Part shown: piece after piece, positions 59 to 35,699 of the stretch
Numbering within the stretch: the stretch's first letter is position 1
How the letters are laid out: every line of letters begins with the position of its first letter
NCBI GenBank assembly: GCA_020725145.1
Contig: DYFO01000022.1
Location: forward strand, 1 to 35,931
Source: Symbiobacterium thermophilum
GTDB taxonomy: Bacteria; Bacillota; Sulfobacillia; UBA995
Length of the DNA stretch: 35,931 bases
Reading direction: 5' to 3'
Translations under genes and position numbers: made by a program
Notes under the pieces: generated by a model
Database searches by the model: none
What the model was told of the DNA's origin: nothing
What the model saw: the letters and a program-made list of their open reading frames with translations, nothing else

Positions 59-87
59 TTGACAGGCGGCAGGGGTTTTGCTACTCT
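59..87 (+). promoter_or_regulatory. Putative sigma-A promoter for the flagellar operon
   Basis: TTGACA (59-64), 17-nt spacer, TACTCT (82-87); just upstream of the riboswitch-like element and flgB. Confidence 0.6.
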
Positions 88-113
88 GGTGTGGTTACCC
101 CCAGACTTGACAG

Positions 114-189
114 ATTCCGACAAACACCTCCCCACCGCCGGGTGGGAGGTAAAGCGATGGCCCTTTTGGGTCAGCCGGGCTGCCGGAGT
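114..189 (+). ncRNA. Cyclic-di-GMP-I (GEMM-I)-like riboswitch aptamer, compact variant
   Basis: ATTCCG/CGGAGT closing stem (114-119/184-189), GACAAAC motif, hairpin CCTCCCCACC-GCCG-GGTGGGAGG, AAAGC motif, short hairpin GGCCC-TTTT-GGGTC, then AGCCGGGCTGCCGG, which resembles the conserved 3' GEMM-I segment; located in the 5' leader of a flagellar operon. Confidence 0.7.
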
Positions 190-228
190 TAAGCCCAACC
201 GCCCCTGGGCGCTCACCCGTTCTGGCAC

Positions 229-251
229 CCCGCTGCGAAGCGGGATGTTTT
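229..251 (+). terminator. Possible riboswitch expression-platform hairpin (intrinsic terminator-like)
   Basis: CCCGCT-GCGA-AGCGGG stem-loop followed by ATGTTTT; U-tract is weak. Confidence 0.4.
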
Positions 252-270
252 GGCAAAGGCGGGAGGCGGC

Positions 271-684
271 ATGGGGTTTTTGTCTACCAGGGGCATAGAG
301 GCGCTCGAGTGGGGACTGCGGGTTACGGGGCTTAGGCAGGCGGCGACGGCACAGAACCTCGCCAACCTGAGCACTCCGGGCTACAAGCGGGTGACGGTGA
401 CCTTTGACCGGCCCTGGCGTGACGCGCTCGAAGGGGCGGAGCGCGGTCTTTCGCCGGTCGTCACCCACCCCTTGCACCTCGGGCCAGGCGCGTCGGCCGG
501 CTACCCTGCTCCTCGTCTACAAAGCGAGCTACACACCTCGGCCCGGCCCGACGGCAACAACGTCGACCTGGAATACGAACTTGCCACGCTCTCGGAGAAC
601 ACCCTGCACCATCAGGCACTCCTCCGCCAGCTCAACCAGCGTCTGGCGGCACTGCGCCTTGCGGTAACCGAAGGCAGGAAGTAA
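271..684 (+). CDS. flgB: Flagellar basal-body rod protein FlgB
   Basis: ATG after GGGAGG; GLRVTGLRQAATAQNLANLSTPGYKR rod-protein N-terminal motif; precedes flgC. Confidence 0.9.
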   Translation: MGFLSTRGIEALEWGLRVTGLRQAATAQNLANLSTPGYKRVTVTFDRPWRDALEGAERGLSPVVTHPLHLGPGASAGYPAPRLQSELHTSARPDGNNVDLEYELATLSENTLHHQALLRQLNQRLAALRLAVTEGRK

Positions 685-17318: not shown

Positions 17319-18004
17319 GCGGCCGTGACCTGCCGGGAGAGGAGGTCCGGGGAACACCCCGTGTGGTGAGCGGTGATCACCTCGAGTTGGTGGTGCAGGA
17401 AGCCCGCCGGGGATGGCAACGCTACCCGGCGGTGGTGCTCACCGCCGACGACGAACGCTTCTGGGTGGAACTGGCGGTCAGGACCCCGCCTTCGCCCGGG
17501 CTTCGACCCGGTCTGCCGGTGCTTTGCCGCCTGCGAAGCCAAACCGCCATCCTGGCCTGGACCTCGTTGGTGCTCGAAGCGGGTCGAGGGCGTCTGACGC
17601 TCTCGCTGCCGGCCAACCACCGAAGGCTGCAGCGGCGCCTGCATGCCCGGGTGGACACGGCGGTGCCGGTAACCTTCGTGGCGCTGCAGGATCCGGACAG
17701 CCACGAGGCAAGGGGTGTGACCGCCGACCTCGGGGGAGGAGGTCTGAGCCTGCTCACCTTCCACCCCCTGGAGCCGGGATGCCGACTGCAACTTGCGATC
17801 GGGCTCAAACCCCGCACGGTGGAGGCGGAGGGCAGGGTCGTCCGCGTGATACACCCTCCCGCGCCGGCGGAGCCCGGCTGCTACGGAATAGAGTTCACCC
17901 GGCTGGCCCAAAGCGCCCAGGACGCCATCTACCGCCACGTTTTCGCCGAACAGGCTCTCCAGCGCCGGATGGGTCTTATGCCGCGAGGAGGGAGGCGCCG
18001 ATGA
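17315..18004 (+). CDS. PilZ-domain c-di-GMP-binding protein (YcgR-like)
   Basis: YcgR-like N-terminal half, RRLHARVDTAVPV and DLGGGGLSL PilZ-type motifs; GTG start overlaps flhA stop. Confidence 0.75.
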   Translation: MSGRDLPGEEVRGTPRVVSGDHLELVVQEARRGWQRYPAVVLTADDERFWVELAVRTPPSPGLRPGLPVLCRLRSQTAILAWTSLVLEAGRGRLTLSLPANHRRLQRRLHARVDTAVPVTFVALQDPDSHEARGVTADLGGGGLSLLTFHPLEPGCRLQLAIGLKPRTVEAEGRVVRVIHPPAPAEPGCYGIEFTRLAQSAQDAIYRHVFAEQALQRRMGLMPRGGRRR

Positions 18005-18792
18005 ACGGTACGAGCGCGGCTTCCGACAAGTTGTGGCAGGCTTACCGGGAAGGAGGGCGGCGGGAGGACCGCAACCGCCTGCTCCTGAGCTACCTGCCGC
18101 TGGTCAAGCACGTCACCTCGCGGCTGGCCGCCTGCCTGCCCGCGAGCGTTCCCGTGGAAGACCTGCATGGCTGGGGGATCTTCGGGTTGATGGACGCGCT
18201 GGAACGTTACGACGCCGGTCGCGGGGTCCGTTTCGAGACCTACGCCGTCTCCCGCATCCGCGGGGCGGTGCTCGACGGCCTGCGTAGCCTGGACTGGGCT
18301 CCCCGCTCGGTACGGCGACGTGCCCGCGAGATCGAGCAAGCCTACCGCCGTGTGGAGGCAAGAGTCGGGCGCCCCGCCGAGGAGGAAGAGGTCGCCGCCG
18401 AGCTTGAGATCACCGTCCGCCAGCTGCACTTGTGGCTGCAGGAAGTGGAAGGAACGGTGGTGCTGTCCTTGCAGGACGTGCTGGGCTCGGCCCAGGAACC
18501 GGGGGAGGAAGGGCTGCTCGCGGGAGATCTGGTCGCCGACCCCGCGATCCCCGACCCCGCGGACCGGCTGGCCGCCGCCGAACTTGCCCGAGAGGTGGCG
18601 CACGCCATCGACGCCTTGCCGGAGCGCGAGCGCCTGGTGATCACCCTGCTTTACTACGAGGAGCTGCGCCCCAAGGAGGTGGCGGCGGTGATGGGGGTTT
18701 CCCCGTCTCGCATCTCCCAGCTCCACGCCCAGGCCCTGCTGCGCCTCAAGCGTGCGCTGGCCCCGCTGGCCGCGGAGGATGACGAGCCGTGA
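18001..18792 (+). CDS. fliA: RNA polymerase sigma factor for flagellar operon, FliA/SigD/WhiG family
   Basis: NRLLLSYLPLVKHVTSRLAACLPASVPVEDLHGWGIFGLMDALERYD...FETYAVSRIRGAVLDGLRSLDWAPRSVRRRAREIEQA; region 4 VAAVMGVSPSRISQLHAQALLRLK. Confidence 0.96.
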   Translation: MNGTSAASDKLWQAYREGGRREDRNRLLLSYLPLVKHVTSRLAACLPASVPVEDLHGWGIFGLMDALERYDAGRGVRFETYAVSRIRGAVLDGLRSLDWAPRSVRRRAREIEQAYRRVEARVGRPAEEEEVAAELEITVRQLHLWLQEVEGTVVLSLQDVLGSAQEPGEEGLLAGDLVADPAIPDPADRLAAAELAREVAHAIDALPERERLVITLLYYEELRPKEVAAVMGVSPSRISQLHAQALLRLKRALAPLAAEDDEP

Positions 18793-21196: not shown

Positions 21197-22578
21197 GCGG
21201 CTTCTCCACGTTGGAGCTGGGCCTACGCAGCCTGCGGGCCCAGGTCATGGTCTCCGGAGTCATCGCCCATAACATCGCCAACAGCCGCTCCCCCGGCTAC
21301 TCGCGTCAGGTGGCCGATCTGCGCCCCCCTCCCTCTTTGCGCCTTTCCGCGCTGGGACGCACGCTCAGTCTGGGCACGGGGGTTTTCGTGTCCGGGGTGC
21401 GAAGGCAGCGCGAGGAGTTCCTGGACCGCCTGTGTCGCCTGCATCTGGCCGACCACCAGCGCTGGGAAACCCAACGTCACACCATGGACCTGGTGGAACT
21501 GGCCTTCGCCGAACCGGTCGGCTTCGGACCCCGCCAGGCGTGCCTGCGCCTGTGGGACGCCTTTCAGGAGCTGGCCGCCGAACCCGAAAGCGGCCCCGTG
21601 CGGGCGGCGGTGCGCGAGGAAGCCGCTTCGCTCGCGTCCAACCTGGCGGGGCTGGCCCGCCAGCTCGGGGCCTTGCGCGCCGACCGTCTGGCAACCGCCG
21701 AAGCCTGTGTGCAGGAGATCAACCATCTCGCGCGGCAGATCGCCGCTTTGAACCGCGACCTGCGTCTGGCCGCCCTGCACGGCACGCAGGCCAACGACCT
21801 CGAAGACCGCCGCGACCTCCTGCTCGACCGGCTCGCCGCCCTGGCCGCGGCGGACTCCGCGCCCGCCGGCGACGGCACCACCACCGTAAGCATCAACGGC
21901 GTGGTGCTGGTCGCCGGTGACACCGTGGCCGAGCTGCGCGTCGACGTGGGCGGGGGGACGCTTAGCATCCTCGACCCCCACGGCGCGCCCGTCGAGCCGC
22001 CCTCGGGCGAGCTTGCCGCCCTGCGCGAGCTTCACGACAGCGTCCTGCCTTCCCACCAGGCCCTGCTGGACGGCTTCGCACGCCGGCTGGCGGACGCCCT
22101 CAACTCCGTCCACCGTGCCGGCTACGGTCTTGACGGATCGTCCGGCCTGGATCTCTTCCGGTACGATGAACCCTCGCCCGCGCTGACCTTGCGGCTGGCC
22201 CCCGAGGTGGCCGCCGATCCCACGCGGCTGGCCGCGTCCAGCGGCGGGGCCGAAGGCGACGGCCTCCAGGCACTCGCGATGGCCCGCGTGCTGACTTCCC
22301 CCAACTTCGACGGCATGGGAGCCTCGGAGTTCTGGGCGGCCGCCATCGGCAAGCTAGGCCTGGAGGTGGAGCAGACCGCCCGGCGGCTGGAAAACACCGC
22401 GCTGCTGGCCGAGCAGGCCCAGATGCAGCGGGCACGCGTGTCCGGCGTGAACCTGGACGAGGAGACGGTGGAACTCGTGCGCTGCCAGCATGCCTACGCG
22501 GCGGCCGCCCGGCTTATCAGCGTGGCCGACGAGATGCTGGAACAGCTGCTCAACCGCACCGGCCGCGTGGGCCGCTAG
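21184..22578 (+). CDS. flgK: Flagellar hook-associated protein 1 FlgK
   Basis: LELGLRSLRAQVMVSGVIAHNIANSRSPGYSRQV; LNRDLRLAALHGTQANDLEDRRDLLLDRLA; GVNLDEETVELVRCQHAYAAAARLISVADEML; alternative GTG 21193. Confidence 0.93.
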   Translation: MGAVSGFSTLELGLRSLRAQVMVSGVIAHNIANSRSPGYSRQVADLRPPPSLRLSALGRTLSLGTGVFVSGVRRQREEFLDRLCRLHLADHQRWETQRHTMDLVELAFAEPVGFGPRQACLRLWDAFQELAAEPESGPVRAAVREEAASLASNLAGLARQLGALRADRLATAEACVQEINHLARQIAALNRDLRLAALHGTQANDLEDRRDLLLDRLAALAAADSAPAGDGTTTVSINGVVLVAGDTVAELRVDVGGGTLSILDPHGAPVEPPSGELAALRELHDSVLPSHQALLDGFARRLADALNSVHRAGYGLDGSSGLDLFRYDEPSPALTLRLAPEVAADPTRLAASSGGAEGDGLQALAMARVLTSPNFDGMGASEFWAAAIGKLGLEVEQTARRLENTALLAEQAQMQRARVSGVNLDEETVELVRCQHAYAAAARLISVADEMLEQLLNRTGRVGR

Positions 22579-22591
22579 GGAGGGAGAGACG

Positions 22592-23479
22592 ATGCGGGTA
22601 GCCGACAGCACGCTCAGCCAGCAGGTGGTGACCACCCTGCGGCGCTGCCGTCAGGAGATGGCCGAGCTGCAGGTGCAGCTGGCGTCGGGCAGACGGTTCT
22701 CCCGCCCTTCGGAGCTGCCACGCGCGGCCGCCCGCGCCCTGATGCTCCACAACGATCTCGACACACTGGAGCGGTACCGCGCGAGCGTGGACTACGCCGG
22801 CTCACGTCTGGCGGTGGTGGAAGCGGCGCTGGGGACCCTCACCGAGCTATTGCAGGATTGCCTGGAGCTCGCCCTGGCGGGCGCCAACGGCTCGCTGACC
22901 GCCGACGATCGCCTGCGTCTGGCCGCCGAGGCCGAGCAAATCCTTGACGGCACGCTCGAGCTGGCCAACAGCTCCTGGACGGGCCGTTACCTCTTCGCCG
23001 GCCACCGCACCTCGACTCCCGCGTTCGAACGTGTGTCCCTCCCGGAGGGCTACGCCTTCGTCTATCAAGGCGACCAGGGCAAACTGGAGCGCGAGGTGGC
23101 TCCCGGACAGGTGGCGCTTTTGAATCTTCCCGGCGACGCCGTTTTCCTTCACCCGCTTGAGGCCATCGAGGAACTGCGGCGCGGCCTGGCGGCCAACGAC
23201 CAGCAGGCAACCACGCAGGCGCTGGCCTCGCTGCACTCCGCTCTCGAGCAGTGTCTCCATCACCGGGCAGCCCTGGGCGTGCGCGTGAGCCACCTTGAGC
23301 TCAGGGGGAACCGCCTGCAGGACATGACCCACGCCTGCCGTGAGGCGCTGGCCCGCGAGGAAGACGTCGACTTCGCCCTGGCCGCCTCCGCCCTGCGTGC
23401 CCGCGAGATCGCCTACCAGTCCTCCCTGGCGGTCGGCGCCCGTCTCCTGCAGGCGTCGCTACTGGATCACCTGCGGTAG
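22592..23479 (+). CDS. flgL: Flagellar hook-associated protein 3 FlgL
   Basis: MRVADSTLSQQVVTTLRRCRQEMAELQVQLASGRRFSRPSE; NSSWTGRYLFAGHRTSTPAF. Confidence 0.93.
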   Translation: MRVADSTLSQQVVTTLRRCRQEMAELQVQLASGRRFSRPSELPRAAARALMLHNDLDTLERYRASVDYAGSRLAVVEAALGTLTELLQDCLELALAGANGSLTADDRLRLAAEAEQILDGTLELANSSWTGRYLFAGHRTSTPAFERVSLPEGYAFVYQGDQGKLEREVAPGQVALLNLPGDAVFLHPLEAIEELRRGLAANDQQATTQALASLHSALEQCLHHRAALGVRVSHLELRGNRLQDMTHACREALAREEDVDFALAASALRAREIAYQSSLAVGARLLQASLLDHLR

Positions 23480-27097: not shown

Positions 27098-27400
27098 CGC
27101 GAGGCCGGAGTCTACGACCGTTTTCCGCACACAACCGGGCGCAAGTCGTCTCCCGTCTATGACCAGCGCGCCATCGTACCCTCTTGTTGTCCCCGCCGCA
27201 GCATCACCGTTATCGCTCGAAAGGACATGGACCCCTCCTCCCAAGCGGTCCCCACAGCCCTTGCCTCCCAAATGCCGTTCCTGTGGTCGGACACCCAGAC
27301 AGGATATCCCATCCCGGCGCCCGTGGTGGTTTCAAAAAGTTTCGTCAGCCCGTCACTCCCTGTCGGTCAGCTGGTGTAAAATCGAAGGGGGTTGTCCAGA

Positions 27401-30097
27401 ATGTGGTGTCGCTGGGAGGGGCAGGACTCCGCGGGCCCGCGACCGCAACCGCCTGCCTGGCTCGTGCTCTGGGGCAAGCGAGGGAAGGGGAACGATCCAT
27501 CCTGGCATCCCCTCGCCTGCCACCTCGTGGACGTGATGATGGTGGCGCGTTGCCTGTGGCAGCATGCCCTGCCGCGGCGGTTGCGGGAACGCATCGCCGC
27601 CGGACTCGGTCTTGCCACGGACGCCGCAGGCTACTGGGTTTCGCTCTGGGCCTCACTTCACGACATCGGAAAGGCTTCGCCCGGGTTTCAGGGCGCCTGG
27701 CCACCTGCCCGTCTGGCGCTGGAAGGCTACGGTCTTGATTTCCCATCGCCGCAAGGGTCCCCCGTCCCCCACCCCCTGGTGACCGCGGCTGTGTTGCCCA
27801 ACCTGCTCAAAGAAACGGGGCTTGCCCAACGGGCCGCGCTGAGGCTGAGCGGAGTGGTAGCGGGACATCACGGAACCTTTCCCCGTGCCGACGCCTGGGT
27901 GGACCTCGGCTCGCACTCGCTGGGCGGCCCGCCCTGGACCGCCGTTCGAAGGGAGCTGTGGAGTCACTTGCTGGCGGTGGCCGGCCCGGCCCCTGAGGCG
28001 GCGCGCCTGGCCTCTTTGTCCGATCACGCCCTGCTCCTGCTGTTGGCGGGCCTGACCTGTGTTTCCGACTGGATCGGGTCGATGCAGGAGAGCTTCCCGC
28101 CCGCGGGGCACGTGTCCGAGCTGGACCGCTACGCCGGTGCCGCGCTGCGCCAGGCCGAGAAAGCCCTTGATCGTCTGGGCTGGTCGGGCTGGGTGCCACG
28201 GCCGGCGGTCGCCTTCTCCAAGGTCTTCGACTTCTCGCCCAACCAGTTGCAGGAGGTGGCGATAAGGCTCGGCGACGAGAACCGGCCCGGCCTGGTCATC
28301 GTGGAAGCCCCCATGGGGACGGGCAAGACGGAGGCGGCCTTCTGGCTCAGCGATGCCTGGCAGGTCGGGACCGGGCTCGGCGGGACATACATAGCACTGC
28401 CCACCGAGGCTACCAGCAACCAGATGTTCGGCCGCTTCCGGGAGTTTTTGTCACGGCGCTTTGCCGGTGACCGGGTGAACCTGCACCTCGTCCACGGGCA
28501 CGCACCGCTTGCCTCCGACTATCGCGAGCTCAGAGTGCTTTCCGCCGCCGAAGACCATGAGGCAGGCGTGGTGGCCGAGGAGTGGTTCGTCCCCCGCAAG
28601 CGGGCGCTGCTCGCCCCCTTTGGGGTGGGAACGGTGGACCAGAGCCTGCTTACCGTCCTGCGCATCAGGCACGGTTTCCTCCGCCTTTTCGGCCTGGCCG
28701 CCAAGACGGTCGTCGTCGACGAGGCCCACGCCTACGACACCTACATGTCGACCTTGCTTGACCGCCTGCTGGCCTGGCTCGGGGCGGCCGGCGCCCCGGT
28801 CATCGTGCTCTCGGCCACCTTGCCCCGGAGTCGCCGATCCCAGTTGCTGGCCGCCTACCTCGGCAAGGAGGCACCACTACCCCCGACGCCGTATCCGCGG
28901 GTGACCTGGGCCTGGGACGGGCGCGCCGGGTGCGTGGCGCTGGAGCCCCCGCCTTCGACGGAAGTACGTCTGGAGCGGGTGGGCTCCGACCCTGACGCGA
29001 TCGCCCGGCGGCTGGCCCGGGCACTCGAGGATGGCGGGTGCGCCGTATGGATCTGCAACACCGTCGGCCGTGCTCAGAAGGCCTACCGGGCGCTCGCCGC
29101 GCTCGAAGCCCCGGGCCTCGACGTGGACCTCTTCCACGCACTCTACCCCTATGCGGATCGTACGAAACGTGAGCAACGTGCGCTCGCCCGCTTCGCCAGG
29201 CGTGCCGACCGGCCCTTCCGGGCGGTGCTGGTCGCCACGCAGGTGGTGGAGCAGAGCCTGGACCTGGATTTCGACCTCATGGTCACCGACCTCGCGCCGG
29301 TCGACCTCCTGTTCCAGCGGCTGGGCCGCCTCCACCGCCACCCCGAAACGCTTCGACCCCCGAAGCTCACCTCCCCGGAGTTGTGGCTCACCCTCTCCCC
29401 GGACCCGGCCGTCCTGCCTGACTTCACGGCGACCTCGCCGGTCTACGACGAGTACCTGCTGCTCAGATCGTGGCTGGCGCTGGCCGGACGTGCGTCGCTG
29501 AAGGTGCCCGACGACATCGAGCCTCTCGTCCAGGAGGTGTACGATGCCCCACCCCCTTCCGGCCTGCAGGGGGAGTTGGCGCAGCGGCTACAGGCGGCCC
29601 GCGACCGCATGCGGGCGGCCCACGACGAGCAGGCGCAGCAGGCCACCTGCAGGCTGATCGGGCATCCCTCGTACCCCGACAACATCCTCGAAGCCTTCAC
29701 GGTGGACCTCGATGAGGAGGATCCGAATGCCCACGTGGCGTTCCAGGCCCTTACCCGCCTGGGCCCCCCGAACGTGTCGCTGGTGTGCCTGCATGCCGTG
29801 AACGGGCAGCCCTCACTCACGCCCGATGGCTCGGAGCCTGTGGACCTCGAACGCACGCCTTCCCTGGCCACGGTGGAGCAGCTGCTGGGCCGATCGCTAC
29901 GGCTTGCGCACCGCGCCCTGGCCCCTCGCTTCCTTGAGCAGCCCGTCCCCCCGGGCTGGCGGAAGTCGCCATTTCTACGTCACCACCGTTGCGCGCTTTT
30001 TAGAGGCGGGCGCTGCCACACGGGCGACTGGGAGCTGGAGCTTGACCCCGAACTCGGTCTGGTGATAAGGAGGCTGGACGGTGACGTACGGTTTTGA
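27401..30097 (+). CDS. cas3: CRISPR-associated helicase/nuclease Cas3 (HD + DExD/H, type I-E)
   Basis: HD motif SLHDIGKASPGFQ, AGHHGTFP, Walker A APMGTGKTEAA, VVVDEAHAYDTYMSTLL, VATQVVEQSLDLDFDLMVTDLAPVDLLFQRLGRLHRH. Confidence 0.96.
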   Translation: MWCRWEGQDSAGPRPQPPAWLVLWGKRGKGNDPSWHPLACHLVDVMMVARCLWQHALPRRLRERIAAGLGLATDAAGYWVSLWASLHDIGKASPGFQGAWPPARLALEGYGLDFPSPQGSPVPHPLVTAAVLPNLLKETGLAQRAALRLSGVVAGHHGTFPRADAWVDLGSHSLGGPPWTAVRRELWSHLLAVAGPAPEAARLASLSDHALLLLLAGLTCVSDWIGSMQESFPPAGHVSELDRYAGAALRQAEKALDRLGWSGWVPRPAVAFSKVFDFSPNQLQEVAIRLGDENRPGLVIVEAPMGTGKTEAAFWLSDAWQVGTGLGGTYIALPTEATSNQMFGRFREFLSRRFAGDRVNLHLVHGHAPLASDYRELRVLSAAEDHEAGVVAEEWFVPRKRALLAPFGVGTVDQSLLTVLRIRHGFLRLFGLAAKTVVVDEAHAYDTYMSTLLDRLLAWLGAAGAPVIVLSATLPRSRRSQLLAAYLGKEAPLPPTPYPRVTWAWDGRAGCVALEPPPSTEVRLERVGSDPDAIARRLARALEDGGCAVWICNTVGRAQKAYRALAALEAPGLDVDLFHALYPYADRTKREQRALARFARRADRPFRAVLVATQVVEQSLDLDFDLMVTDLAPVDLLFQRLGRLHRHPETLRPPKLTSPELWLTLSPDPAVLPDFTATSPVYDEYLLLRSWLALAGRASLKVPDDIEPLVQEVYDAPPPSGLQGELAQRLQAARDRMRAAHDEQAQQATCRLIGHPSYPDNILEAFTVDLDEEDPNAHVAFQALTRLGPPNVSLVCLHAVNGQPSLTPDGSEPVDLERTPSLATVEQLLGRSLRLAHRALAPRFLEQPVPPGWRKSPFLRHHRCALFRGGRCHTGDWELELDPELGLVIRRLDGDVRF

Positions 30098-31619
30098 CCT
30101 GGTGAACGAGGGCTGGATCCCCTGCGTGATGCCGGACGGCCGTGTCCGGGAGCTGGGCCTGCTGCCAACCCTCGCGAACGCCCCCTCCATCCGCGAGCTG
30201 CACGACCCCTCGCCGCTGGTTACCGCTTCCCTGCACCGGCTGCTGCTGGCGGTGCTGCACCGGAACTTCGGCCCGCCCGATCTGGACGCATGGATCGAGT
30301 TGTGGGAGGCCGGCCGCTGGGATGCAAGCCGCCTTGAGGCTTATTTCGATCGCTGGCAAGACCGCTTCGACCTCTTGCACCCGGAGCGCCCGTTCTACCA
30401 GACGGCAGGCTTGCCCCACCAACCGGTCTCCATCGCCAAGCTCGCTCCCGAGCTTGCCTGCGCCAACAACCCTACCCTTTTCGACCACACCATGGACGGC
30501 TCACCCCCGGCCGTAGACTTGCCCGCGGCCGCGCGCCTGGTCGTCGCGTGCCAGGCTGCGGATCTGGGAGGACTGGTCAGCAGGCTGCCAGGAGAGCCGC
30601 CTTCTGCACCGGCCGCCCCCCTGGCCACAGGGGCCGTGGTCCTGTACCAGGGCAGCAACCTCTTCGAGACCCTCATGCTGAACCTGATCGTCTACAACTC
30701 CAGCGAACCCTGGGAGGCCGACCTGAGCGCCGATCGCCCGTCGTGGGAACAGGAAAGCCCGCCTTCGGAGCTGCGGACCGTCCCGGGTTACCTTGACTAC
30801 CTCACCTGGCAGAGCCGTCGCATTCTGCTTGTACCGGAGTCCCTCGATGGCCGGACGGTGGTACGCAGGGCAGTGCTAACGGCCGGTCGGCGACTGCCCG
30901 ACACCATGCCCGTGATGGACCCGCAGTTCGCCTTGCTGAAAAACCCCCGGAAGAAGCTGCGAGCGAAGGATCCTGCGTGGCTGGCCCTTCGTTTCCGGCC
31001 CGACCGCGCGCTCTGGCGGGACAGCACAGCCCTGCTCGCGGCGTCAAGCGACTACAACGTCCCTCCCCGTGCCCGCCGGTGGTTGGGCGAACTGGTGGCC
31101 CAGGGCTTCCTGGATCGAAGTGCGAGGTACCGGCTGGTGGTCGCCGGGTTGGGAAGCGAGCGGGCCAAGGTTCACTTCTGGCGCCAGGAGCGCATGCCGC
31201 TTCCTCTCGCCTACCTCGCGGACGCCGACCTCGTCGAGCTACTGAGAGGGTCGCTGAAGCTCGCCGAGAGGATCGGCTGGCTGCTACAACGCGCACTTGA
31301 GACGGCGACAGTGCCTGGCACCCGGCCCGACTCGCCCGGGGAACAGGCGCCGATCGCTGCCGGGCTCCTGCGTTACTGGTCGCTCCTGGAGATCCCCTAC
31401 TGGCACCTGATGGAGGACCTGCCGGTCGAGGCCGCCCACGCCCAGGCTGTCTGGGCCCGCACCTTACGCCAGGCCGCGCTGGAGGCCTTCGACCGCGCCC
31501 TGGAAGGGCTCCAACAGGGCCGGCTGTTGAAGGAGGTGACAGTGGCGCGAACGTGGCTGGAACGCGTCCTCGCAGCATCGATGAGACCGTACCGGGAGGT
31601 GGCCAATGAGACAGGATAA
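30081..31619 (+). CDS. casA: Type I-E Cascade large subunit CasA/Cse1 (Cas8e)
   Basis: FDLVNEGWIPCVMPDGRVRELGLLPTLANAPSIRELHDPSPLVTASLHRLLLAVLHR; follows cas3; GTG start. Confidence 0.93.
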   Translation: MTYGFDLVNEGWIPCVMPDGRVRELGLLPTLANAPSIRELHDPSPLVTASLHRLLLAVLHRNFGPPDLDAWIELWEAGRWDASRLEAYFDRWQDRFDLLHPERPFYQTAGLPHQPVSIAKLAPELACANNPTLFDHTMDGSPPAVDLPAAARLVVACQAADLGGLVSRLPGEPPSAPAAPLATGAVVLYQGSNLFETLMLNLIVYNSSEPWEADLSADRPSWEQESPPSELRTVPGYLDYLTWQSRRILLVPESLDGRTVVRRAVLTAGRRLPDTMPVMDPQFALLKNPRKKLRAKDPAWLALRFRPDRALWRDSTALLAASSDYNVPPRARRWLGELVAQGFLDRSARYRLVVAGLGSERAKVHFWRQERMPLPLAYLADADLVELLRGSLKLAERIGWLLQRALETATVPGTRPDSPGEQAPIAAGLLRYWSLLEIPYWHLMEDLPVEAAHAQAVWARTLRQAALEAFDRALEGLQQGRLLKEVTVARTWLERVLAASMRPYREVANETG

Positions 31620-32142
31620 GCGGGTACCGTTCGTCGAGTACCTCGAGAAGCTGCGTGACCAGGAGGACCGGGCGGCGCTGGCCGCCCTGCGGCGGGGGCT
31701 GGGCAGAACCCCGGCCGAGGCCGCCGAGATGCACCGGTACGTGGTCCCGTGGCTGCCGCCGGAGACGCGGCGCTGGGACGAGGACTGCCACTACCTGGTG
31801 GCCGCGCTGTTCGCCTCTCATCCCGCCCCGGGAGGTAGCGGCAGCATGGGTGACACGCTGGCCCGCGTTGCCCAGAAGGGTAACGCGGCCGCCGTCGAGC
31901 GCCGTTTCGTGGCCTTGCTGAAATCCCATCCCCAGGACCTGGCGGATCGCCTGCGCCACGTGGTGAGCCTCGCCCGTGCCCACGACGTCCCCGTGCACTG
32001 GCACCAGCTGTTCCGGGACGTTCGTGATTGGCAGCATCCGGCCCAGTACGTGCAGCGCAACTGGGCCCGCGATTTCTGGTCGGCCCTTGCGCCGCCGACG
32101 GTCGGCGAGGAGACCGAGCAAGTCCAGGCAAAGGAGGCATGA
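31606..32142 (+). CDS. casB: Type I-E Cascade small subunit CasB/Cse2
   Basis: FVEYLEKLRDQEDRAALAALRRGLGRTPAEAAEMHRYVVPWLP...ERRFVALLKSHPQDLADRLRHVVSLAR. Confidence 0.93.
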   Translation: MRQDKRVPFVEYLEKLRDQEDRAALAALRRGLGRTPAEAAEMHRYVVPWLPPETRRWDEDCHYLVAALFASHPAPGGSGSMGDTLARVAQKGNAAAVERRFVALLKSHPQDLADRLRHVVSLARAHDVPVHWHQLFRDVRDWQHPAQYVQRNWARDFWSALAPPTVGEETEQVQAKEA

Positions 32143-32145
32143 CCC

Positions 32146-33321
32146 ATGAAGATCGAGCTCCACATTCTCCAGAACTTCGCGCCGTCGTGCCTGAACCGGG
32201 ACGACGTCAACGCGCCCAAGGACTGCGAATTCGGAGGGGTACGGCGCGCCCGCATCTCCAGCCAGTGCCTCAAGCGTTCGGTCCGCGTCTACTGGACGCA
32301 GCACGGCGAGCTCGAAGGACACCGCGCCGTGCGCACCCGAAGGCTGGCTGCCCACGTGGCCGAACGGCTTGCGGCCCAGGGGCGCGACCCAGAGGAGGCC
32401 ACCCTCCTGTGCAGGTTCGCACTGGAGCGCGCCGGCCTCGGCATCACCCGGGACGGCACCACCGAGTACCTGCTCTTCCTCAGCGAGCGGGCCATGGACA
32501 CTCTGGCCGCGGCCATCACCGAGCACTGGGACACCCTGAACGCGGCATGCGCGGCCCAATCCGCCGGTAAGGAACCGGCCAAGTCCCGCAAACAGGACGA
32601 TTCCGCACTCCCCGCCGAGGTGCAGAGGGCGATCGAGGAGATCTTCTCCGGTCGCAAGGCTGTCGACCTCGCCCTCTTCGGCCGCATGGTCGCCGACGCG
32701 CCCGAACGCAACGTCGAGGCCGCCTGCCAGGTGGCTCACGCCATCTCGACCCACCGTGTCAATGCGGATCTGGACTTCTTCACGGCCCTGGACGACCTGC
32801 AGCCCCAGGGAGAACCGGGAGCGGGCATGATGGGCACCGTCGAGTTCAACTCCGCCTGCATGTACCGCTACGCCCTCCTGGACCTCGTTCAGCTCAAGAA
32901 CAACCTGGAGGGAGACGCCGAGCTCGCCCTCGAGGCAGCACTGGCATTCCTCAAAGCGTCGGTACAGGCCGTGCCATCCGGCAAGCAGAACAGCATGGCC
33001 GCCCACAACCCGCCCAGCCTGGTTATGGTGGTCATCCGCACCGCGGGTGTCCCCTGGTCGCTGGCCAACGCCTTCCAGCATCCGGTCACCGCCGGGACTC
33101 CCGACCAAGGCGGGCTGGTGGAGCAATCCATCCGGCGCCTCGACGCCTACTGGGGCAGGCTGCAGGCCGTCTACGGCACGACCGGCATTCAGACCTCTGT
33201 GGCCCTGACGGTGGAGGACGTGCCCCTGAGCCATGTCGGTCGCCGCGCCGCGAACCTGAAGGAACTTCTGAACGCGGTCCGTACGGCCGTTGAGGAGAAT
33301 CCGCAATGGCGGTCCTGCTGA
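32146..33321 (+). CDS. casC: Type I-E Cascade backbone Cas7/CasC/Cse4
   Basis: ELHILQNFAPSCLNRDDVNAPKDCEFGGVRRARISSQCLKRSVR; ALFGRMVADAPERNVEAACQVAHAISTHRVNADLDFFTALDDL. Confidence 0.96.
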   Translation: MKIELHILQNFAPSCLNRDDVNAPKDCEFGGVRRARISSQCLKRSVRVYWTQHGELEGHRAVRTRRLAAHVAERLAAQGRDPEEATLLCRFALERAGLGITRDGTTEYLLFLSERAMDTLAAAITEHWDTLNAACAAQSAGKEPAKSRKQDDSALPAEVQRAIEEIFSGRKAVDLALFGRMVADAPERNVEAACQVAHAISTHRVNADLDFFTALDDLQPQGEPGAGMMGTVEFNSACMYRYALLDLVQLKNNLEGDAELALEAALAFLKASVQAVPSGKQNSMAAHNPPSLVMVVIRTAGVPWSLANAFQHPVTAGTPDQGGLVEQSIRRLDAYWGRLQAVYGTTGIQTSVALTVEDVPLSHVGRRAANLKELLNAVRTAVEENPQWRSC

Positions 33322-34007
33322 TACGGCTCGCCGGTCCCATGCAGGCCTGGGGTGTGCACAGTCGCTTCACGGTGCGCGACACGGGCACGGAGCCTTCCAA
33401 GTCCGGCGTCGTCGGTCTGCTCTGCGCCGCCTGCGGGGTGAGCCGCTCCGACACCGCCCGTATCGCCGAGCTCGCCGCGCTACCGATGGGGGTGCGGGCG
33501 GACCGCGAAGGCAAACTGATGCGGGACTTCCACACGGCCGGCGGCGGAATGTGGCCCGGCTTGCGAAGCTACGGCGTGCGCCGGGCCTCGGGCGAACCCG
33601 GCGAGACCGTCACCTCCGAGCGCTACTACCTGGCCGACGCCGACTTCCTGGTGGCACTGGAAGGCCCTCGCCCACTGCTCGAACGACTGCACGCGGCACT
33701 GGCCTCCCCGGTCTGGCCTCTTTACCTCGGCCGCAAGGCCTTTGTTCCCGGAGAGCCGGTACGGTTACCCGACGGCCTGCGAGACGGCGACGTGCCCTCG
33801 GTTCTCCGCTCTTACCCCTGGCGCAAGCGCCCCCACGACTCGGATCCCGAAAGGCTGCGGCTGGTCCTGGAGTGCGCGGCCGACGAAGGGATCGCACGCC
33901 TGGACGTGCCGGTGTCGTTCGAGATCGGTTCCCGCCGCTACTCCCTCCGCTACGTCAGGACGGCGTGGGTGTCCACCGGGGAGCTCCCGCGGATGGAGGA
34001 GGTCTAG
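33306..34007 (+). CDS. casD: Type I-E Cas5/CasD
   Basis: LIRLAGPMQAWGVHSRFTVRDTGTEPSKSGVVGLLCAACG. Confidence 0.95.
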   Translation: MAVLLIRLAGPMQAWGVHSRFTVRDTGTEPSKSGVVGLLCAACGVSRSDTARIAELAALPMGVRADREGKLMRDFHTAGGGMWPGLRSYGVRRASGEPGETVTSERYYLADADFLVALEGPRPLLERLHAALASPVWPLYLGRKAFVPGEPVRLPDGLRDGDVPSVLRSYPWRKRPHDSDPERLRLVLECAADEGIARLDVPVSFEIGSRRYSLRYVRTAWVSTGELPRMEEV

Positions 34008-34010
34008 GAC

Positions 34011-34727
34011 ATGTTTCTCTCGCGCCTCATCCTGAACCCCCGCAACGGCCGAGTACGCAGGGATCTGGCAGACTGCGGCCAGATGCACCGGACGATCATG
34101 CGCGCCTTTCCTCCGACCGAACCGGGCGAATCTGCCCGCGCGAGCTTGGGCGTGCTCTACCGGGTCGATGCCGACCCGCAGGGGCGCCTTGTCCTCTACG
34201 TCCAGTCGCGTCAGTGCCCGGATTGGTCAGCCCTGGAACCGGGTTACCTCCTGCACCCGCCCGCCTGCAGACGCGTAGACCACGTGTACCAGGCGTTGAC
34301 ACCGGGCACCGTGTTGCGCTTCCGACTCCGGGCCAACCCCACCCGGAAGATCGACACCAAGAGCGGTGCCGACGGACGCCGCCGTCACGGACGGAGGGTC
34401 GAGCTCCGTACCGAGGCCGATCGCCTCGCCTGGCTAGAGCGGAAGGCTGAAGCTTCCGGTTTCGAGCTGGTTTCGGTGCGCGTCAGCACCTCCGTCCCCG
34501 ACGTGACCACGATCCCGCAGGGCAAGGTGGTGCGCACCTCTGGCTATTGCCACTGCGACACCCCGGAAGGGCGGATCTCGCATACCCTGACGCTCGCACC
34601 CGTCCTCTTCGAAGGGCATCTGCGGGTGGTGGAGGCCGAGCGGTTCCGCCGTGCCCTGGAGACGGGGATCGGACCCGGCAAGGCCTATGGCATGGGGCTG
34701 CTGTCGATAGCTCCGGCGGCCAGGTGA
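34011..34727 (+). CDS. casE: Type I-E crRNA endoribonuclease Cas6e/CasE/Cse3
   Basis: MFLSRLILNPRNGRVRRDLADCGQMHRTIMRAFP; C-terminal FRRALETGIGPGKAYGMGLLSIAP (G-rich RAMP loop). Confidence 0.95.
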   Translation: MFLSRLILNPRNGRVRRDLADCGQMHRTIMRAFPPTEPGESARASLGVLYRVDADPQGRLVLYVQSRQCPDWSALEPGYLLHPPACRRVDHVYQALTPGTVLRFRLRANPTRKIDTKSGADGRRRHGRRVELRTEADRLAWLERKAEASGFELVSVRVSTSVPDVTTIPQGKVVRTSGYCHCDTPEGRISHTLTLAPVLFEGHLRVVEAERFRRALETGIGPGKAYGMGLLSIAPAAR

Positions 34728-34733
34728 GGGAAC

Positions 34734-35699
34734 GTGCAAAACCTTCACCTCTTGCCGAAGTTCCGTGACGGCTGGAGCTATCTGTACGTGGAGCACTGCA
34801 AGGTCGACCGGGACGACAAGGCGATCATCGTCCACCAGGCCGACGGCAGCGTTCCCGTGCCCTGTGCAACGCTTGCGCTGCTCATGCTGGGGCCGGGATC
34901 TACCATAACTCACGCTGCCGTCCGCGTCCTTGCGGAAAGCGGGTGCACCGTGCTCTGGTCAGGTGAGGAAGGCGTTCGCTTCTACGCGCAGGGACTGGGC
35001 GAGACCCGAAAGGCCCATCGGCTGCTTCACCAGGCCCGCTGCTATGCGGATACAGAGCTTCGCCTCCAAGTGGTCAGGCGTCTCTACCAGCTGCGCTTCC
35101 CGGAGCCGCTCGATCCTTGCGCCACCCTGCAGGAAATCCGCGGCATGGAAGGCATCCGGGTTCGGGAGGCTTACTCCCGCGCCAGCCGCGAAACCGGCGT
35201 GGAATGGAAGGGTCGTTTGTACCGACGCGATCGCTGGTCGTCTGCAGACCCGGTCAACCGTGCCCTCTCCGCAGCCAACAGCTGCCTGTACGGGATCTGC
35301 CACGCCGCCATACTCTCGGTGGGCTACTCGCCTGCCCTGGGTTTCATCCACACCGGGAAGATGTTATCGTTCGTTTACGACGTGGCCGATCTTTACAAGA
35401 CCGAAATCACCATCCCCATAGCCTTCCAGGCGGCGGCCCAGGGCCAGTCCGCGTTGGAGAGCAGGGTTCGGCATCGCTGTCGCGATCTGTTCCACCAAAC
35501 CCGTCTCCTCGCCCGCATCGTGCCGGATATCGACTACGCGCTGGGCGTTCGGAGCCAGGGCGAGACCACCGACCCCGACTTCGAAGAGGATGAAGCTGCC
35601 CCCGGCGATCTCTGGGATCCGGATCTCGGCACCGTGCGCGGAGGGGTGAATTTCGGGGATCAAAGGGAGGGTGGGACGGATGGTCGTGATGATCCTTGA
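34734..35699 (+). CDS. cas1: Type I-E CRISPR integrase Cas1
   Basis: LHLLPKFRDGWSYLYVEHCKVDRDDKAIIVHQADGSVPVPCATLALLMLGPGSTITHAAVRVLAESGCTVLWSGEEGVRFYAQG; GFIHTGKMLSFVYDVADLYK. Confidence 0.97.
   Translation: MQNLHLLPKFRDGWSYLYVEHCKVDRDDKAIIVHQADGSVPVPCATLALLMLGPGSTITHAAVRVLAESGCTVLWSGEEGVRFYAQGLGETRKAHRLLHQARCYADTELRLQVVRRLYQLRFPEPLDPCATLQEIRGMEGIRVREAYSRASRETGVEWKGRLYRRDRWSSADPVNRALSAANSCLYGICHAAILSVGYSPALGFIHTGKMLSFVYDVADLYKTEITIPIAFQAAAQGQSALESRVRHRCRDLFHQTRLLARIVPDIDYALGVRSQGETTDPDFEEDEAAPGDLWDPDLGTVRGGVNFGDQREGGTDGRDDP

Follow-up and report, generated by a model that had tools for sequence, protein, structure and literature searches.

Organization of the locus

The window, the whole stretch of 35,931 nucleotides that was analysed, is an entire contig of a draft genome (2.07 Mb, 94.5% complete) and carries a flagellar operon of ~23 kb that reaches about 23.5 kb. 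Beginning with the ATG of flgB at 271, the operon comprises flgB, flgC, fliF, fliG, fliH, fliI, fliK, flgD, a hook/rod gene, motA and motB, and then fliM, fliP, fliR, flhB, flhA, a sigma factor, two rod genes, flgK and a flagellin-type gene. The last of these (22490–23479) has both the N- and C-terminal flagellin domains and adjoins flgK at the operon end; it may be FlgL rather than a flagellin. The sigma-factor ORF (17413–18792) has about 220 residues before the sigma-70 regions, reflecting either a misplaced start or an N-terminal extension. Downstream of the flagellar operon, in the same orientation, lies a type I-E-like CRISPR-Cas cassette with Cas3, Cse1, CT1975-like and Cas1 (27392–35699).

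The operon is preceded by a leader that begins 58 bases from the contig end (Table 1). It contains the motifs ATTCCG (114–119), GACAAAC (119–125), GGTAAAGC (148–155), AGCCGGGCTGCCGG (173–186) and CGGAGT (184–189), which belong to a GEMM-I-like element spanning 113–190, and, further downstream, the hairpin CCCGCT-GCGA-AGCGGG (229–244) followed by ATGTTTT. An earlier note on this DNA had listed the promoter, these leader motifs and the hairpin before flgB, and every element was found in its place; the features that it had named as atypical are likewise present, namely, a GCCG loop (137–140) and a short middle hairpin, GGCCC-TTTT-GGGTC (159–172). The TTGACA element of the promoter does not vary among the four leaders of the family (the window and its relatives G001, G002 and G003), and their −10 regions align; the lack of a call at 59–87 in a generic promoter scan is attributed to the weak −10.

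Table 1. Features of the leader and the first gene of the flagellar operon (window coordinates; position labels such as A47 follow Vc2)
Feature	Position	Strand	Details
Sigma-A-type promoter	59–87	+	TTGACA 59–64, TACTCT 82–87, spacer 17 nt
P1 5' strand GATTCCG	113–119	+	Pairs with CGGAGTT 184–190; 7-bp P1 in predicted three-way junction
Remodelled core	120–130	+	ACAAACACCTC replaces ATAAGGGCAAA of the relatives; 4/11 identical
Fused P1b and P2 hairpin	126–150	+	~10 bp, one-base bulge, GCCG loop; fold −17.5 kcal/mol
Possible mini-ORF MALLGQPGCRS*	145–192	+	ORF 157–192, GGAGGT 145–150; window only
C44/G45/C46 positions	148–150	+	G148 at C44, G149 at G45, U150 at C46 (R1 alignment)
AAAGC	151–155	+	5/5 identical in all relatives; A151 = A47
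P3	153–181	+	Basal AGC/GCU kept; distal part cut to UUUU-capped stem
Aptamer 3' strand CAGCCGGGCTGCCGG, proposed antiterminator 5' strand	172–186	+	Duplex with 222–235, −20.9 kcal/mol
Expression platform	174–252	+	79/79 identical to G001
C183 = C92	183	+	Rfam and R1 alignments
Stem GCCCA/TGGGC, loop ACCGCCCC	193–210	+	Folds; no variation in stem or loop among the four leaders
Antiterminator 3' strand CTGGCACCCCGCTG	222–235	+	Overlaps terminator 5' arm
Intrinsic terminator CCCGCTGCGAAGCGGG and T-rich tail	229–250	+	Hairpin 229–244; called by terminator scan
flgB, first gene of the operon	271–684	+	Pfam PF00460; orthologs begin MGxL at the same place

Homology to c-di-GMP-I aptamers

At gathering thresholds, Rfam gave no matches in the window. 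In a relaxed search, the best match was to c-di-GMP-I (RF01051) at 109–187; it scored 17.2 bits, where the gathering score is 35. A significant score with this model had been named in the earlier note as support for its claim, and the leader falls short of it. A search at the DNA level through 41 related genomes recovered the leaders of the other three family members, all of them uncultured Firmicutes/Clostridiales-type genomes (UBA995, UBA8125 and Ess09-15). The G001, G002 and G003 leaders lie before flgB and score 62, 73.5 and 73.7 bits with the c-di-GMP-I clan, and in each the aptamer is followed by an expression platform nearly identical to that of the window. The model that scores these relatives best (62–74 bits) is c-di-GMP-I-GGC (RF03167); membership of this type was rejected for the relatives and the window alike, because position 47 is A rather than G in both.

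A model (R1) was then built from 24 GEMM-I aptamers with the window left out: the three relatives, 20 aptamers from other families of the class that lie just 5' of flgB, and a single additional copy from the class (G004), taken irrespective of its neighbouring gene. It matched the window at 116–188 with 23.6 bits (E = 1e-4; the next match in the window has 11.5 bits), and this was the best match in the whole genome (E = 0.006). The score is weak by itself, since up to 20 bits are reached by chance in the coding sequences of related genomes; one 20-bit match, in G005, was discarded as a GEMM copy as it lies in a tsaD-like coding region. The fold energy of the leader is not beyond chance either (z = −1.25 versus shuffles), and it is the comparison with relatives, not folding, that lifts the leader above chance. 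Judged by its position and its alignment with these relatives, the window leader is securely homologous to their c-di-GMP-I aptamers, albeit at 17–24 bits versus 62–97 in the orthologs.

Intact GEMM-I elements before flgB are well known and common in the class: the c-di-GMP-I clan is matched in 136 of 154 class genomes, and GEMM-I lies just upstream of flgC loci in most of the 30 inspected. The form in the window is derived and divergent, and it turned up a single time. No other GEMM copy in the window genome rose above chance, and a search with a model of the window's own form (R2) across 154 class and 300 phylum genomes retrieved nothing beyond chance except the canonical G002 leader and a single canonical GEMM-I, leaving it as a single known sequence. 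We have, therefore, filed it as a variant, not a member, of c-di-GMP-I (RF01051). Like the members, it lies before flgB, has the P1/P2/P3 three-way junction, AAAGC, A47, C92 and the 3' strand AGCCGGGCTGCCGG, and is demonstrably homologous to intact copies in its own family; unlike them, it is below the gathering score and has lost the GCAAA/CGC core, C44, the GNRA loop and the long P3.

The expression platform is conserved

The platform comprises the aptamer 3' strand, a stem-loop with the invariant ACCGCCCC loop, and the terminator. Its identity to the G001 platform holds between different genera, in which 56% of the four-fold degenerate sites in nine operon genes differ (582/1042). Constraint from a coding region was rejected as an explanation: full nucleotide identity contrasts with this synonymous divergence, and indels put the relatives out of frame with one another. 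Other platforms of the class differ in sequence, and a pattern scan for this one found only the three relatives among the genome contigs and no match in viral contigs. The segment is far more constrained than the terminator platforms of the class, and such near-identity is in itself unusual.

In design, the platform combines an intrinsic terminator with a competing predicted antiterminator that shares the aptamer 3' strand. Both structures form in folds of all four family leaders; for nascent transcripts, the antiterminator is the minimum-energy structure of three leaders, and in the window it lies within roughly 1 kcal/mol of the minimum. Its duplex energy is no better than that of shuffled GC-rich sequence (p about 0.35–0.45), so the case for the antiterminator pairing is made by conservation and position, which suggest that the two strands would pair as proposed. 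In one fold only, the ACCGCCCC loop pairs with the flgB Shine–Dalgarno sequence GGCGGG (258–263), a possible extra layer; the sequences involved are invariant.

Changes within the aptamer

We assigned the Vc2 numbers to the alignment columns ourselves, using the Rfam alignment and the sequence context published for Vc2. Identity to the relatives is high in the 5' strand of P1 (6/7 with G002 and G003) and in the upper P2 stem at 131–146 (13–14/16), and low in distal P3 (5–9/18). In the 24 related aptamers, the helices covary (eight pairs change on both sides, a number that none of 500 shuffles reached), and the motifs GCAAA and CGCAAA, together with the P1b pairs G21–C46 and C22–G45, are invariant. 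The window has ACCTC for GCAAA and GGTAAA for CGCAAA: in an ungapped alignment with G002 (CCGATAAGGGCAAACCCACC versus CCGACAAACACCTCCCCACC), GGGCAAA becomes ACACCTC, and on the 3' side of the core GGCGC becomes AGGT. Measured by the earlier note's other criterion, conserved pocket bases, the window is changed at core positions in which none of the 24 related aptamers varies.

In the predicted structure, P1b now consists of A126–U150 and C127–G149 and joins P2 through the new pairs C128–G148 and U129–A147 and a bulged C; as A126 corresponds to G21, the G21–C46 pair survives as A–U. The C44–G83 interhelical pair is lost, with G148 at the C44 position (a G under both alignments) and G174 kept, and there is neither a GNRA tetraloop nor a P3 receptor, the loop being GCCG and distal P3 being shortened. 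Position 20 is C125 in the homology-based alignment and G119 in the Rfam alignment. A47 and C92 are kept; the former stacks on the ligand and the latter makes a Watson–Crick contact to it.

Mutant data from characterized riboswitches bear on these changes. The C44–G83 interhelical pairing is described as universal among GEMM riboswitches (PMC4744006), and mutation of G20 in Vc2 carries a 30,000-fold cost according to a figure cited in that paper. In Cd1, disruption of C35–G79, the equivalent of C44–G83, or of the tetraloop abolished binding, and replacing G11, which corresponds to position 20, by A or C made little difference (PMC9262584). Taken with the lost pair and tetraloop, the Vc2 and Cd1 data make it likely that the window aptamer would lack canonical c-di-GMP binding.

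The candidate ligands

Specificity for cGAMP in GEMM-I requires A at position 20, a base that points to a GEMM-I of the cGAMP or promiscuous type, and Ser at the selectivity position of a GGDEF domain marks the Hypr cGAMP synthases. The window shares its architecture with the GEMM-Ib 3',3'-cGAMP riboswitches; unlike them, it has no A at position 20 in either register (C125 or G119), and none of the seven GGDEF domains in the draft genome (94.5% complete) has Ser, this position being D, N or missing. On these grounds we rejected cGAMP, which the earlier note had kept as a candidate ligand. Several GGDEF proteins with GGEEF/GGDEF motifs are encoded in the window genome; c-di-GMP is, therefore, presumably made.

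Elsewhere in the survey, two canonical-looking GEMM-I elements with A, not G, at position 20 were observed: the flgB leader of G026 (L084:2402–2492, minus strand; AAAAGCAAAC), which precedes a flagellar operon, and an element in G019 (L106:1504–1577; AAUAGCAAAC). Several GGDEF domains of the family (L008, L016, L010, L011 and L013) have N for D at the guanine-selectivity position (GHPAGN and similar).

A probably eroded sensor with a preserved terminator

Of the earlier proposal of a c-di-GMP-I-like riboswitch, a GEMM-I-derived leader with a terminator before a flagellar operon has stood; a working minimal member of the class, responsive to c-di-GMP or cGAMP, finds no support. GEMM-I OFF switches before flgB are known from Clostridium difficile (PMC3649979, PMC9262584, PMC11477304), and the window leader is the positional ortholog of the transcriptional switch of this kind that the rest of its family has at this place. 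It resembles Cd1/Cdi1_3 of the C. difficile flgB operon (PMC3649979, PMC9262584) in its transcriptional OFF design, in the type of operon and in the terminator and antiterminator built from the aptamer 3' strand, although in the window these are predicted; unlike Cd1, which binds c-di-GMP, it lacks the C44–G83-type pair and the tetraloop, both of which are needed in Cd1. In the relatives, c-di-GMP would stabilize the aptamer and hold the 172–186 strand inside it, leaving the terminator arm free, so that transcription stops; in the absence of ligand, this strand would pair with 222–235 and transcription would run into the flagellar operon.

The window leader descends from the same ancestor as these switches, its sequence has changed in the core and its platform is conserved. 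Our preferred reading, which we hold to be rather probable, is that it is what remains of a c-di-GMP-I OFF switch, recently remodelled and probably blind to c-di-GMP, with the terminator and antiterminator preserved. The binding core would have been rewritten in the window lineage, with P1b and P2 merging into a single uninterrupted hairpin and with loss of the GCAAA/CGC core, the C44–G83 pair and the tetraloop–receptor contact, while P1, the upper P2 stem, the base of P3, A47, C92 and the whole terminator/antiterminator were retained. Most likely, the result would be an attenuator that still divides transcripts between readthrough and termination and makes no canonical response to c-di-GMP; in its simplest form, its setting would be constant, irrespective of c-di-GMP. 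The concentration of changes in the core and distal P3, with the scaffold nearly intact, fits recent loss or remodelling of the sensor, not long neutral decay. Against blindness, an unused platform should eventually drift and yet it has not, which calls for either recent loss or retained use; A47, C92 and G21–C46 (as A–U), which a functional pocket would require, are still there; and in Cd1 an A or C in place of G11 made no great difference (PMC9262584). Additionally, the antiterminator duplex energy, no better than that of shuffles, and the single sequence of this form count against the reading as a whole.

Alternatively, as the earlier note supposed, the leader may be a divergent but working c-di-GMP-I aptamer, in which the core forms non-canonically and still binds c-di-GMP. 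The Rfam register would serve it, with G119 as G20, A120–U150 and C121–G149 as P1b, and CAAAC kept: G20, A47 and C92 are then all in place and G21–C46 becomes A–U, and the frozen platform and the preserved P1, upper P2 and P3 base are also as expected. However, this register requires G119 to leave P1, and A126–C128 to give up their pairs with G148–U150 in the −17.5 kcal/mol hairpin; C44 is a G in either alignment, the GNRA loop and receptor are absent, and the scores are far below those of the orthologs. We regard a working aptamer of this kind as unlikely.

The frozen terminator/antiterminator might, instead, have acquired a new input, either another ligand (in a C20/A47/C92 pocket) or translation of a mini-ORF, and the strong constraint on the platform would suit both. 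The mini-ORF (GGAGGT-AAAGCG-ATG, 11 codons) overlaps P3 and ends just past the antiterminator strand, and both it and its Shine–Dalgarno sequence were created by the same mutations that changed the core; a ribosome on 157–192 would cover the antiterminator strand, favouring termination. The window has GGAGGT-N6-ATG, and a TAA just past the antiterminator strand; the strict pattern GGAGGT-N4-8-ATG occurs in 0.2% of shuffles, a figure for a pattern chosen post hoc. We give the mini-ORF little weight because it was noticed afterwards and its Shine–Dalgarno sequence is buried, fully paired, in P2; moreover, it is absent from the relatives. For any new input, there is one sequence to consider and no similar aptamer in the 154 class or 300 phylum genomes, and we think such a re-purposing improbable. 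A misassembly of the aptamer or a mixture of strains is very improbable: the contig starts at base 1 of the window, close to the leader, but the changes are structured (new complementary arms within an intact scaffold), unlike a simple junction, the promoter, P1 and platform are colinear with those of the relatives, and the genome holds no second copy.

If the preferred reading of an eroded sensor is true, the leader would be a natural case of a switch that has lost or changed its sensor while the sequence of its actuator stayed frozen. One could use it to test directly how a riboswitch decays or takes on a new input, and whether flagellar expression in the window lineage has escaped control by c-di-GMP.
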